Source: Rhodoferax sp. (GTDB lineage Bacteria > Pseudomonadota > Gammaproteobacteria > Burkholderiales > Burkholderiaceae_C). From it: a stretch of DNA of 64,000 bases. How positions within the stretch are numbered: the first letter of the stretch is position 1; each line of letters opens with the position of its first letter. Of the stretch, positions 26,108 to 48,518 are shown one piece after another. The notes under the pieces were generated by a model, which saw nothing but the letters and a program-made list of their open reading frames with translations, did no database searches and was not told the DNA's origin. The DNA is taken from contig NZ_JAQTWL010000002.1 of assembly GCF_028689295.1 (NCBI RefSeq), positions 62,001-126,000 of the forward strand, written 5' to 3'. A program made the position numbers and the translations under genes.

Positions 26108-26366
26108 GCTGCCCCCGCTGTCCGCTTTACCTGAGAGATTCGCCGCCGCCAGTCGCGCAGGGCGCACGGGCTTTGGGTTGCTCCTTCGGTGGATCATGAT
26201 TGGCACAGGTGCCAGCGATGACCTCTCTCCAGTGGGGAATCGTCAACAAGTTTCAGGGCTCGATGACGGTTGTCAGTCCTTTTGCCTGAGCGTTCAAGCG
26301 GCTGCAATCAGCCACTCTGCGCCTTCGGCGGCCTGCCTCTGAGGACAAGCTCTCTCCTGACGGGGC
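26108..26366 (-). promoter_or_regulatory. Tandem glycine riboswitch upstream of gcvT
   Basis: Read on the minus strand, two glycine aptamers follow each other. The first (about 26366-26273) has GTCAGGAGAGAGC, GCCGCCGAAGGCGC and CGCTCAGGCAAAAGGAC. The second (about 26238-26108) has TGGAGAGAGG, CCACCGAAGGAGCAA and TCTCTCAGGTAAAGCGGAC. These are the conserved pieces of the class in the expected order, with a linker of about 35 nt. No terminator hairpin is evident between the second aptamer and gcvT, so glycine probably turns expression on by exposing the ribosome site. Confidence 0.95.
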
Positions 26367-26422
26367 AAATTCTACATGGGGTTCATGACGGACTTCGCGG
26401 CGCGGCCTTGCTCCAACAGTGC

Positions 26423-45117: not shown

Positions 45118-46170
45118 TGGGGGCGGGCACTGGGATTTTCACAAATTGGCGTGGCCGGTGTCGATTTGAAGGACGCAGAACCCGGATTATCGGCGTGGCT
45201 GGCCGCTGGCTGCCACGGTGATATGCACTACATGGCGATGCATGGCCTCAAGCGCGCGCGTCCGGCCGAACTGGTGCCGGGCACCTTGCGCGTGATCACC
45301 GCGCGCATGGATTATTTGCCGGCCGACTGCCCCGAGGGCTGGCAGACACTGGAGCTGGACCGGCTCAGACGTCCCTCGGAAGCGATTGTGTCGGTTTATG
45401 CCCGCGGCCGGGACTACCACAAGGTGATGCGCAACCGTTTGCAACAGCTGAGTGGTCAGATTGTCAAGGCGCTGGGGCCACTGGCATACCGGGTGTTCAC
45501 CGACTCGGCGCCGGTGCTCGAAGCCGAGCTGGGAAGCCGCAGCGGTCAGGGCTGGCGCGGCAAGCACACCCTGCTGCTGAGCCGTGATGCCGGCTCGATG
45601 TTTTTTTTGGGTGAAATCTTTGTCGATATGGCTCTGCCCGTGACCGACCCAGTGGCGGGGCATTGCGGCCGTTGCAGCGCCTGCATCGACATCTGCCCGA
45701 CGCAGGCCATCATCGCCCCGTACCAGCTCGATGCCCGGCGCTGCATCTCGTACCTGACGATCGAACATGCCGGATCGATCCCGCTGGAACTGCGGCCCCT
45801 GATGGGCAACCGCATTTACGGCTGCGACGATTGCCAGTTGATTTGTCCCTGGAACAAGTATGCCCAGCGCAGCGCCTTGCCCGACTTCGACGCTCGTGCC
45901 GGTCTGGCGGGCAGCCAACTCGTCGAGCTGTCTGGCTGGAGTGAGGAGGCATTTTTGCGTTTCACCGAGGGCAGCCCGATCCGCCGCATCGGCCATGAGC
46001 GCTGGCTGCGCAACATTGCCGTGGCGCTCGGCAACGCGCTGCGCGAGCTTGATGTCGACGCTGCAGAGCCACTTTTGACTGCGCTAGCCTCGCGCGCCGG
46101 GCACCCGAGCGCCTTGGTGCGTGAGCATGTGGCGTGGGCGTTAAAACAATTGGGGTCAGATTCCAATTAA
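45061..46170 (+). CDS. queG: Epoxyqueuosine reductase QueG
   Basis: 369 residues from GTG 45061. It is a cobalamin- and iron-sulfur-dependent enzyme performing the last step of queuosine tRNA modification. Two [4Fe-4S] motifs are present: CGRCSACIDICPTQAI near 200 and CDDCQLICPWN near 255. The FSQIGVAGV opening, RPAELVPGTLRVITARMDY and a C-terminal HEAT-like region follow. Start choice is uncertain because no good ribosome site is visible. The last residues (QLGSDSN) come from an intergenic repeat, GGGGTCAGA, reading into the gene. Confidence 0.9.
   Translation: MNNTLQQINGSQWVSRIQQWGRALGFSQIGVAGVDLKDAEPGLSAWLAAGCHGDMHYMAMHGLKRARPAELVPGTLRVITARMDYLPADCPEGWQTLELDRLRRPSEAIVSVYARGRDYHKVMRNRLQQLSGQIVKALGPLAYRVFTDSAPVLEAELGSRSGQGWRGKHTLLLSRDAGSMFFLGEIFVDMALPVTDPVAGHCGRCSACIDICPTQAIIAPYQLDARRCISYLTIEHAGSIPLELRPLMGNRIYGCDDCQLICPWNKYAQRSALPDFDARAGLAGSQLVELSGWSEEAFLRFTEGSPIRRIGHERWLRNIAVALGNALRELDVDAAEPLLTALASRAGHPSALVREHVAWALKQLGSDSN
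46148..46168. repeat. GGGTCAGA-type palindrome forming the queG 3' end
   Basis: AATTGG-GGTCAGATT-CCAATT: six-base arms around a GGTCAGA core, matching the core of the 35706 and 49966 repeats. It supplies the last codons and stop of queG. Confidence 0.5.
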
Positions 46171-46199: not shown

Positions 46200-46275
46200 G
46201 CGCAGTGGCTGGCTTTGGCGGCTTCCTCATGCTGGGGTACCAGAAATCGTCAGCCCCCAAAGCCAGCCACTGCGC
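46200..46275 (-). repeat. Long hairpin A with conserved apical core
   Basis: Arms GCGCAGTGGCTGGCTTTGG and its exact 19-nt reverse complement flank a 38-nt centre; four more pairs (GGCT/AGCC) form after one mismatch. Read on the minus strand, the centre has CGATTTCTGG, TACC, then CCAGCATGAGG, where CTGG and CCAG make a small inner stem. The same core, in opposite orientation, forms the tip of element B at 46407, although the arms are unrelated. No coding potential and no transposase nearby. Confidence 0.8.
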
Positions 46276-46329
46276 TGGACGCCGGTGCGTGAGAAACGGA
46301 TGGCTTGGCGTGGTGAGGCACAAATCCGA

Positions 46330-46345
46330 CAGGGCATCTGCCCTG
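46330..46345. repeat. Short hairpin between elements A and B
   Basis: CAGGGCA-TC-TGCCCTG, a perfect 7-bp stem with a two-base tip, lies between the two long hairpins. No T tract follows. Role unknown. Confidence 0.45.
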
Positions 46346-46351
46346 GTATCT

Positions 46352-46381
46352 GAATTTGAGTTTGAGTTTGAGTTTGAATTT
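46352..46381 (+). repeat. Hexanucleotide tandem repeat (GARTTT)5
   Basis: Five head-to-tail hexamers: GAATTT, three GAGTTT, then GAATTT. It lies in non-coding DNA between the two hairpins and is AT-rich compared with its surroundings. The small ORF through it (EFEFEF) has no other support. Confidence 0.85.
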
Positions 46382-46406
46382 CAAAAATCGTTGCATATCA
46401 CTGTCT

Positions 46407-46484
46407 CGCGTAGCAATCGGCAGGGGTGGTCACCGATTTCTGGTGCCCCAGCATGAGGTGGCCGCCCCTGCCGATTACCACGCG
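46407..46484 (+). repeat. Long hairpin B with conserved apical core
   Basis: A 78-nt inverted repeat whose 28-nt arms pair throughout except two A-C mismatches. Two U-G wobbles arise only if the plus strand is the RNA, hinting at plus-strand structure. The inner arm segment is AATCGGCAGGGG with matching CCCCTGCCGATT. The tip is GATTTCTGG, TGCC, then CCAGCATGA, matching element A's core at all but one base. Arms share no sequence with element A. The rest of the 46171-46557 gap shows no gene. Confidence 0.8.
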
Positions 46485-46557: not shown

Positions 46558-47472
46558 CTAAACCAACGACCTCAAAACCCCCAGCGCCAACGGCAAACTG
46601 AGCATGCCGAGCACGGTGGACACGGTCACCAGCGCAGCCACATAAGGCCCGTCATAACCCATGCGCGCGGCCAAGACATAACAGCTCGACGCTGTCGGCA
46701 GCGCGGAGAACATCAGCAAGATGGTGGCTTGCACCTGATTCAGGCCAAATAACAGGCACAAAGCAAGTGCCAGCAATGGCATCAGCAAGTGGCGAATCAG
46801 AAGCACCGCCACGCCCAACAACTTGGCGTGGTTCAGGGCACTCAGTTGCATGCCGGCACCGGCGGCCATCAGTCCGAGCGTCAGCGATGCGCCGCCTATG
46901 CGGGTGACGGTGGGTTCGGCCCAGCCCGGGATCGAAAAACCGGCCAGGTTGGCGACCAGTCCGCTGGCGGTGCCGATGATCAGCGGGTTGCGCACCAATT
47001 CGCCCAGAAAACCGCGTTCGGCGTGGCGCGCCATCGGCCACACTGCACCAATGTTCATTAGCGGCACACTGACACCGATCAACAGCGCAAGCACCAGCAG
47101 GCCCGGTGGTCCGGCCAGACGTTCGGCCAGCGCCAGGCCGATAAAGGAGTTAAACCGGAAAGCAACCTGGGCGCTGGCCGCGTGCTGGCGCGCCGCCATG
47201 TGCTGCCTGAAGCCCGGCCAGTAGGGCACCGAGTAGGCCATGGCGATGCCGCCCAGTCCCAGCGCCCAGCCGGCCAGCACCAGGTTGCCTGCCGCGCTGA
47301 TGTCGAGCGGGCTTTTCAGGATCGAGTGAAACAGCAGCACCGGAAAGAACAAAAAATAGACCAGTTGCTCCACTTGCGTCCAGACGGCGCGGTTCAGTGG
47401 CGTGAAGCGGCAGATCAGGTAGCCGATCAGAATCAGCGAAAAGTCGGGAAAGAGGAGCTGGGCGTAGTTCAC
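46558..47472 (-). CDS. AEC-family (auxin efflux carrier) transporter
   Basis: About 304 residues and ten hydrophobic segments in two halves, opening YAQLLFPDFSLILIGYLICRFTPLNRAVW. AEC carriers move small carboxylates such as malate or malonate, or other anions; the substrate here is unknown. GTG at 47472 follows AAGG and matches the family start; the longer track start adds 26 unlikely residues. Confidence 0.85.
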   Translation of the reverse strand: MNYAQLLFPDFSLILIGYLICRFTPLNRAVWTQVEQLVYFLFFPVLLFHSILKSPLDISAAGNLVLAGWALGLGGIAMAYSVPYWPGFRQHMAARQHAASAQVAFRFNSFIGLALAERLAGPPGLLVLALLIGVSVPLMNIGAVWPMARHAERGFLGELVRNPLIIGTASGLVANLAGFSIPGWAEPTVTRIGGASLTLGLMAAGAGMQLSALNHAKLLGVAVLLIRHLLMPLLALALCLLFGLNQVQATILLMFSALPTASSCYVLAARMGYDGPYVAALVTVSTVLGMLSLPLALGVLRSLV

Positions 47473-47564
47473 GCCTTGAGAATAGCAGGCCTGGACGCGC
47501 CAAATCCACCGATGGCGCCCGCAGGCGACAGCTCGGCATAAGATGCGCACTTCTTTTTGTCTTC

Positions 47565-48518
47565 ATGCCCATGCCCCCGACTCCAGCCCTTGTGAATGCG
47601 ACTGCGCGCCGCGCCAAAACCGCACCCGACCCGGTGGTCGACACCTTCATCGATGCCCTGTGGCTCGAAGAAGGCTTGTCCAAAAATACGCTGGCGGCCT
47701 ACCGGCACGACCTCACCTTGTTTGGCGCCTGGCTGGCCGCGCAGGGCAGGCATTTGCTGGACGGCACCGAGATGCTGCTCAATGGCTATTTTGCCGACCA
47801 GCACGCCGCAACCAAAGCCACCACCGCCAACCGCCGCCTGACGGTGTTCAAGCGCTTTTACCGCTGGGCCTTGCGCGAACGGCTGCTGGGTGCCGATCCG
47901 ACGTTGAAACTGCAGGCCGCCAAACAATCGCTGCGCATGCCTAAAACGCTGACCGAGCCGCAGGTGGAAGCCCTGTTGAACGCGCCCGACACCAACCAGG
48001 CGCTGGGCGTGCGCGACCGCACCATGCTGGAGCTGATGTACGCAAGCGGCCTGCGCGTGAGTGAGCTGGTGGGCTTGAAAGTGTTGAATGTGAGCCTGTC
48101 GGACAACGTGCTGCGCGTCTTTGGCAAGGGCAACAAGGAGCGCCTGGTGCCGTTCGGCGAGGTCGCCAGCCTATGGCTCAAGCGCTATCTGGCCCAGCCC
48201 CGGGTCGAGCTGTTGGCCGGCCACGCCAGCGAGGCGCTGTTTGTCACCCTGCGCGGCCGCACACCGGGCACGGCCATGAGCCGGGTCATGTTCTGGATGA
48301 TCGTCAAAAAATACGCGCTGCTGGCAGGCATCACTGCGCCGTTGTCACCGCACACGCTGCGCCACGCCTTCGCCACCCATTTGCTCAACCATGGCGCCGA
48401 CCTGCGCGCGGTGCAATTGCTGCTCGGCCATGTGGATATCTCCACCACCACCATCTATACCCATGTGGCACGGGAGCGCCTCAAAGTCCTGCACGCCCAG
48501 CACCATCCGCGCGGATGA
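47565..48518 (+). CDS. xerD: Tyrosine recombinase XerD
   Basis: 317 residues. An N-terminal SAM-like DNA-binding domain ([29 protein letters not shown]) precedes the catalytic domain with [12 protein letters not shown] (Arg), [12 protein letters not shown] (His, Arg) and [16 protein letters not shown] (His and the nucleophile Tyr). XerD acts with XerC at dif to resolve chromosome dimers, under FtsK control. It is divergent from the AEC gene. No dif-like site was noticed nearby. Confidence 0.93.

Follow-up and report, generated by a model that had tools for sequence, protein, structure and literature searches.

Inverted hairpin doublets with a fixed internal loop in Comamonadaceae-type bacteria, probably non-autonomous palindromes of the REP/REPIN kind

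The doublet between a queG-like and a transporter-like gene

In the 64,000-nucleotide stretch of DNA analyzed here (the window), two hairpins of opposite orientation lie between a queG-like gene (plus strand, ending at 46170) and a transporter-like gene (46558-47550, minus strand), both named by reading the sequence, without a domain search. Hairpin A (46200-46275, minus strand, 76 nt) is built of a 5' arm at 46249-46275 and a 3' arm at 46200-46226, which form 27 bp on the minus strand around the 22-nt tip GATTTCTGGTACCCCAGCATGA (46227-46248, minus). Hairpin B (46408-46483, plus strand, 76 nt) has 27-bp arms at 46408-46434 and 46457-46483 (plus) around the 22-nt tip GATTTCTGGTGCCCCAGCATGA (46435-46456, plus). 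A 132-nt spacer (46276-46407) separates their inward-facing 5' ends and contains, at 46345-46380, a brief tandem run (GAATTTGAGTTTGAGTTTGAGTTTGAATTT). The sequence-only reading that pointed to this pair had described a shared core with one difference, which is the single-base difference (TACC or TGCC) found between the tips. Placed in register, both hairpins measure 76 nt, with 27-bp arms and a spacing of 132 nt, where it had given 76 and 78 nt, 19 to 28 bp and 131 nt.

Both hairpins are real by folding: their energies, -58 to -63 kcal/mol, are lower than those of shuffled sequences by 8.3 to 9.5 SD, and none of 200 shuffles folded as well. The two wobbles reported in B are indeed G.T pairs on the plus strand. 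A family covariance model matches A with 91.8 bits (G000:C43:108198-108276) and B with 83.4 bits; in Rfam 15, no model reached its gathering threshold on the hairpins, the sub-threshold matches being miRNA models only. Had A and B proved to be fragments of one annotated insertion sequence, the hairpin proposal would, as set beforehand, have been refuted; they are not such fragments.

At 46148-46168 lies the palindrome AATTGGGGTCAGATTCCAATT, which in these genomes is associated with RAYT genes; it overlaps the queG-like gene upstream at its last codons. RAYT-type ends are absent around the doublet itself. The window also holds an XerD-type tyrosine recombinase gene (47565-48518, plus strand; TIGR02225, 347.5 bits), about 1 kb to the right of the doublet, and tandem glycine riboswitch aptamers (RF00504, two matches) at 26108-26369 on the minus strand.

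Pairing, host range and genomic sites of the family

Forty-one copies align without gaps in a single register, with a covariation score of 0.609, whereas shuffles reach 0.174 and slid structures 0.07-0.14, and double changes occur, in at least one of these copies, at 25 of the 27 outer pairs. The compensated arm variation that had been proposed from A and B is thereby borne out. The other result set beforehand as refuting, a core occurring without paired arms, was not found: of 292 sites chosen by the exact tip alone, all but one (291) have arms that pair around it. The tip itself is less rigid than had been supposed: the invariant part is a 5x5 internal loop formed by GATTT and, opposite it, YATGA, and the apical stem-loop undergoes compensated changes (CTGGTACCCCAG, CGGGTACCCCCG, CTGGGCCTTTGACAG, CTGCTCGCAG and others). 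About half of the copies, among them A (GAC-GATTT...YATGA-GGA), have an additional tandem G.A mismatch (GAC...GGA), and the remaining half, B included (ACC-GATTT...YATGA-GGT), are Watson-Crick paired at this position. Family-wide, the arms measure about 27 bp and the tip 20-26 nt. As stated previously, the arms of A and B have no sequence in common; across the family, a weak consensus in the arms is still visible, as are arm subfamilies that recur, one of which occupies 12 loci in both orientations in a single genome (G073).

Wobbles account for approximately 9% of arm pairs in the wider family. Since an A.C pair on one strand is a G.T pair on the other, these mispairs can be read as a comparison of the two strands. 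On the GATTT strand, non-Watson-Crick arm pairs comprise 572 G.T and 34 A.C (17 to 1), and the ratio is 558:71 in a set chosen by tip alone, irrespective of the arms.

The tip, allowing up to three mismatches, was present in 24 of 61 genomes, all of the same genus. The covariance-model search that had been suggested recovered copies in 69 out of 90 genomes from the same genus; family-wide, 60 of 301 genomes, belonging to 38 of 141 genera, were positive, and single genomes contain up to about 50 copies. Across an order-wide sample of 399 genomes, matches were restricted to the same family, in a scan whose stricter filters and 1e-6 threshold could let weak relatives outside it escape. Records with copies are assigned to Rhodoferax, Limnohabitans, Polaromonas, Curvibacter, or Comamonadaceae or Burkholderiales MAGs. 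One record titled Singulisphaera holds a copy of the Limnohabitans composite type (see below), and this is therefore probably a binning error. The exact tip is absent from the viral contigs searched, and no DNA resembling the hairpins was found in phage and plasmid records, which speaks against a phage or plasmid origin. The open-access text holds no relevant paper on the tip or end sequences, although an earlier description elsewhere is possible. A and B thus form one doublet of a real, abundant and apparently undescribed hairpin family, which in the genomes searched is confined to Comamonadaceae-type bacteria (one GTDB family).

Doublets are almost uniform in orientation (115 of 116): the minus copy lies on the left and the plus copy on the right, 5' ends face to face, with spacers of 29-224 nt (median 85). 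Doublets are mostly intergenic, only 5 of 93 lying at divergent promoters, and single copies are antisense more often than sense (42 to 16), these context counts being approximate because the classes come from a home-made codon-usage gene caller. At the site of the window, after queG, a doublet is present in several close species (79-86% identity) and absent in others, while a one-hairpin remnant is seen at locus L350 and a deletion fusing both hairpins at L354. Downstream of queG at L348, a CGTC-type repeat (CGTCATTGCGAACGAAGTGACGCAAT) is found near a relative of hairpin A.

Hairpins in both orientations also occur inside coding genes (uvrA, dnaE2-like, leuS), some of them in frame, and one uvrA gene contains three doublets. 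Very long uvrA-like frames with two UvrA-like halves (at least 2167 aa in L180) were observed at L180, L181 and L183, and their linker regions contain as many as three hairpin doublets. The leuS gene of genome G195 carries a 28-aa insert (residues 392-419) that coincides with a hairpin; nothing corresponds to these residues in the LeuRS structure 6q89, where residue 374 is directly followed by 375, and the hairpin is absent from leuS of the sister species (G298). The hairpin is therefore DNA able to arrive in a coding loop.

Some intercistronic sites recur across genera. Between aldehyde dehydrogenase and DUF779 genes, doublets or singles were seen at L092-L096, L195, L238, L255, L264, L282 and L313 (several genera), the first hairpin often lying 34-42 nt past the stop codon. 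In Limnohabitans-type genomes, hairpins repeatedly occupy the interval between boxB- and boxA-like genes, named from sequence reading, at L098, L106, L204, L210, L268 and L269, as well as at L280, L283, L288, L290 and L293. Such recurrence could reflect a cis function instead of mobility. At the aldehyde dehydrogenase-DUF779 site, however, only 8 of 30 loci carry hairpins and their presence varies within genera, so that an obligatory cis function there is unlikely. As to the suggested check for a particular protein family near the copies, neighbour clustering did not reveal an unrelated hairpin-linked gene family: it returned shared operons (aldehyde dehydrogenase-DUF779, box genes, rdgB) and no transposase.

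RAYT-type transposases and composite palindromes

Nearly every host encodes a single Y1 protein of about 235 aa, and the two proteins tested against NF047646 (REP-associated tyrosine transposase) scored 86.0 and 79.8 bits (cut-off 80). No hairpin was found within 1.5 kb of the approximately 60 Y1-transposase loci examined, and a hairpin directly flanking the Y1/RAYT gene was thus discarded as a candidate arrangement (0 of about 60 loci). RAYT genes are present in hairpin-free genomes too, and in one genome with several hairpins (G221) no Y1 gene was found. The palindrome AATTGGGGTCAGATTCCAATT is located at 30 of 37 RAYT loci and its half-site at 40 of 44.

A more direct link is provided by composites. 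In Limnohabitans-type genomes, the hairpin forms the apex of a palindrome of about 147 bp with outer ends AATTGGGGTCAGATCAACATTAATTT and its complement, and these 26-nt ends are identical to a repeat at the RAYT gene. Symmetric AATTGGGGTCAGA ends surround 25 of 284 tips, the background being about 0.014 half-sites per 300 bp, and composites total 30, with the tip centred and the arms symmetric. All seven composite-bearing genomes searched encode an NF047646-type RAYT (four of the seven proteins exceeding the cut-off), its gene carries AATTGGGGTCAGA half-sites on both sides in 7/7 and the extended 26-nt repeat in 6/7. The RAYT-flanking repeat containing GGGGTCAG fits GGGGWSAS, the TIRtron motif (PMC3733652). 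These findings suggest that RAYT acts in trans on composites, for which the link is good; that it also moved the window doublet, which is without RAYT ends, we infer by extension.

Within composites, there is hardly any variation in the outer 26 nt or in the tip and its flanks of about 10 nt, whereas 27 of the 30 differ in their middle arms. Of 561 middle pairs, taken from few genomes and hence not independent draws, 557 are Watson-Crick, two G.T, none A.C and two other. Half-compensated states are accordingly almost absent in composites, and both observations agree with the idea that arm pairing is kept mainly by a mutational process, such as hairpin-templated correction or arm copying, and not by selection. 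As a main explanation we consider this doubtful, as the wider family has about 9% wobbles with the 17:1 excess of G.T over A.C, a bias that symmetric copying followed by neutral decay would not yield. It bears on the way in which arm pairing is maintained, and a mobile element would be compatible with it. In a related and equally tentative form, the near-absence of half-compensated composite arms raises the possibility that, at each move, a single strand folds back at the fixed tip and one arm serves as template for the other, which would reset the pairing to near-perfect while leaving the arm sequence free to wander. To our knowledge, such arm-from-arm copying has not been described for REP-like elements.

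Somewhat less likely again is that the hairpin is an independent element moved by another enzyme, which sometimes inserts into the middle of a RAYT-type TIR element and hitch-hikes, RAYT being otherwise inactive on it. Such an element would fit the restriction of RAYT ends to 25 of the 284 copies, the existence of TIR elements without the tip, and the Y1 loci examined without a nearby hairpin. Yet no candidate enzyme is linked to the hairpins, and 30 composites with centred tip and symmetric arms are more regular than random insertion.

Strand asymmetry, related systems and a model for movement

The excess of G.T is insensitive to the surroundings of the hairpins. Doublet hairpins sense to co-directional genes have G.T:A.C counts of 116:6, those antisense 120:4 and those between convergent genes 77:6, and the bias is equal for both replication directions in two genomes; a candidate replication-strand bias of single copies gave 11 of 12 in G194 but about 6 of 10 in G066. 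Because the bias is independent of gene and replication direction, folding of mRNA does not easily account for it, and nor does mutation linked to transcription or replication. The hairpin itself might bring about a hidden mutational asymmetry; we take the count to reflect selection for the single-stranded DNA fold of the GATTT strand, the conserved structure thus residing on one DNA strand and not in mRNA.

A structured RNA whose tip is bound by a protein, be it a small RNA or an element at the 3' end of an mRNA, as had been offered earlier, would match the very stable folds, the strong covariation, the tolerated G.T (G.U) wobbles, the location after stop codons and the few doublets at divergent promoters (5/93), but is improbable given that the antisense and sense counts are alike, so that selection is not on the mRNA strand, that singles are mostly antisense (42 vs 16), that copies lie within coding genes in either orientation, that any doublet transcript has one hairpin on the wrong strand, that spacers as short as 29 nt are too small for two divergent promoters and that no Rfam family reached threshold. 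The same indifference to gene direction led us to reject an intrinsic terminator or riboregulator as the main function, the terminator having been set aside from the sequence already.

The other earlier suggestion, a non-autonomous hairpin element, is well supported: copies are scattered, orthologous sites may have or lack them, insertions occur in frame, and some copies bear transposase ends. The closest systems are TIRtrons/TIRYT and RAYT-mobilised REPINs (Di Nocera 2013, PMC3733652; Bertels and Rainey 2011, PMC3116915). Shared with these systems are an NF047646 HuH tyrosine transposase flanked by inverted repeats containing GGGGTCAG, short non-autonomous units with the same ends elsewhere and extragenic doublets. 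In contrast, the hairpins have a central apex with the fixed GATTT/YATGA loop and long, hypervariable, self-complementary arms, and most copies, those of the window included, lost or never had the ends. The TIR that a TIRYT MITE-like element would have in common with its transposase gene is seen, as a 26-nt repeat, for composites but is absent at the window doublet; likewise, the gene-flanking repeat that a RAYT-dependent element would share is present on composites and lacking on hairpins without RAYT ends. The arrangement as inverted hairpins at short spacing (29-224 nt) in one orientation (115/116) is that of REPIN/BIME doublets.

CGTC-tagged REPs and Rickettsia palindromic elements resemble the family in their inverted doublets, in having no transposase directly adjoining, and in in-frame insertion into uvrA, dnaE2 and tRNA-synthetase genes, the Rickettsia type of insertion being matched here by uvrA, dnaE2 and leuS with its 28-aa insert. 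CGTC REPs differ by stems of 8-9 bp, loops of 4-5 nt and conserved sequence, as opposed to hypervariable arms of about 27 bp. A CGTC tag at offset -33 was detected in 12 of 184 representatives (YGTC in 16 of 184), in one subfamily and not generally, and a GTAG tag in 0-4 of 184 at any offset from -45 to -25, which argues against a universal tag of either kind and agrees with the earlier view that these are not classic REPs. GTAG REPs and E. coli BIMEs are likewise extragenic inverted pairs with a stem irregularity that TnpA-REP reads strand-specifically; TnpA-REP acts on folded REP DNA and reads or needs the stem bulge (PMC8266576). Unlike these, the hairpins have no GTAG tag, stems several-fold longer and their conserved part in an internal loop near the tip, not at the foot.

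Integron attC sites are also recombination-type DNA hairpins in which one strand matters and the arms vary. They differ in that the conserved part of the hairpins is at the tip and the outer R''/R' boxes (GTTRRRY) are absent, as the sequence-only reading had concluded: the outer flanks of doublets yielded no conserved box, terminal repeat, target duplication or precise end. No association with an integron integrase was seen in the genomes examined.

Taken together, the dispersed copies, the constant orientation of doublets, the pairing bias towards one strand, the insertions in frame and the transposase-type ends of composites make it probable that the hairpins are REP/REPIN-like non-autonomous DNA palindromes, marked by a loop on one strand and moved by a RAYT-type HuH transposase. 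In this model, each unit would fold as single-stranded DNA into an arm of about 27 bp, the fixed GATTT/YATGA loop and a short apical stem-loop, the loop marking one strand for recognition and presumably being what the protein reads. The arms would need only to pair, so that their sequence could drift. The probable mover would be the RAYT-type HuH tyrosine transposase encoded once by nearly every host.

REP-like elements are usually detected by shared sequence; here almost only the internal loop and pairing are common, and sequence searches would therefore overlook much of such a family. The asymmetry of G.T and A.C pairs, independent of transcription direction, offers an inexpensive way of telling which strand of a palindromic DNA is the important one. 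For the open question of how RAYT enzymes move repeats, composites supply a concrete pair of transposase and substrate. Hypervariable, near-perfectly paired arms between constant ends and tip hint at palindrome copying as single-stranded DNA and, if self-copying were true, the fixed ends and tip would frame a sequence that is self-complementary but unconstrained.
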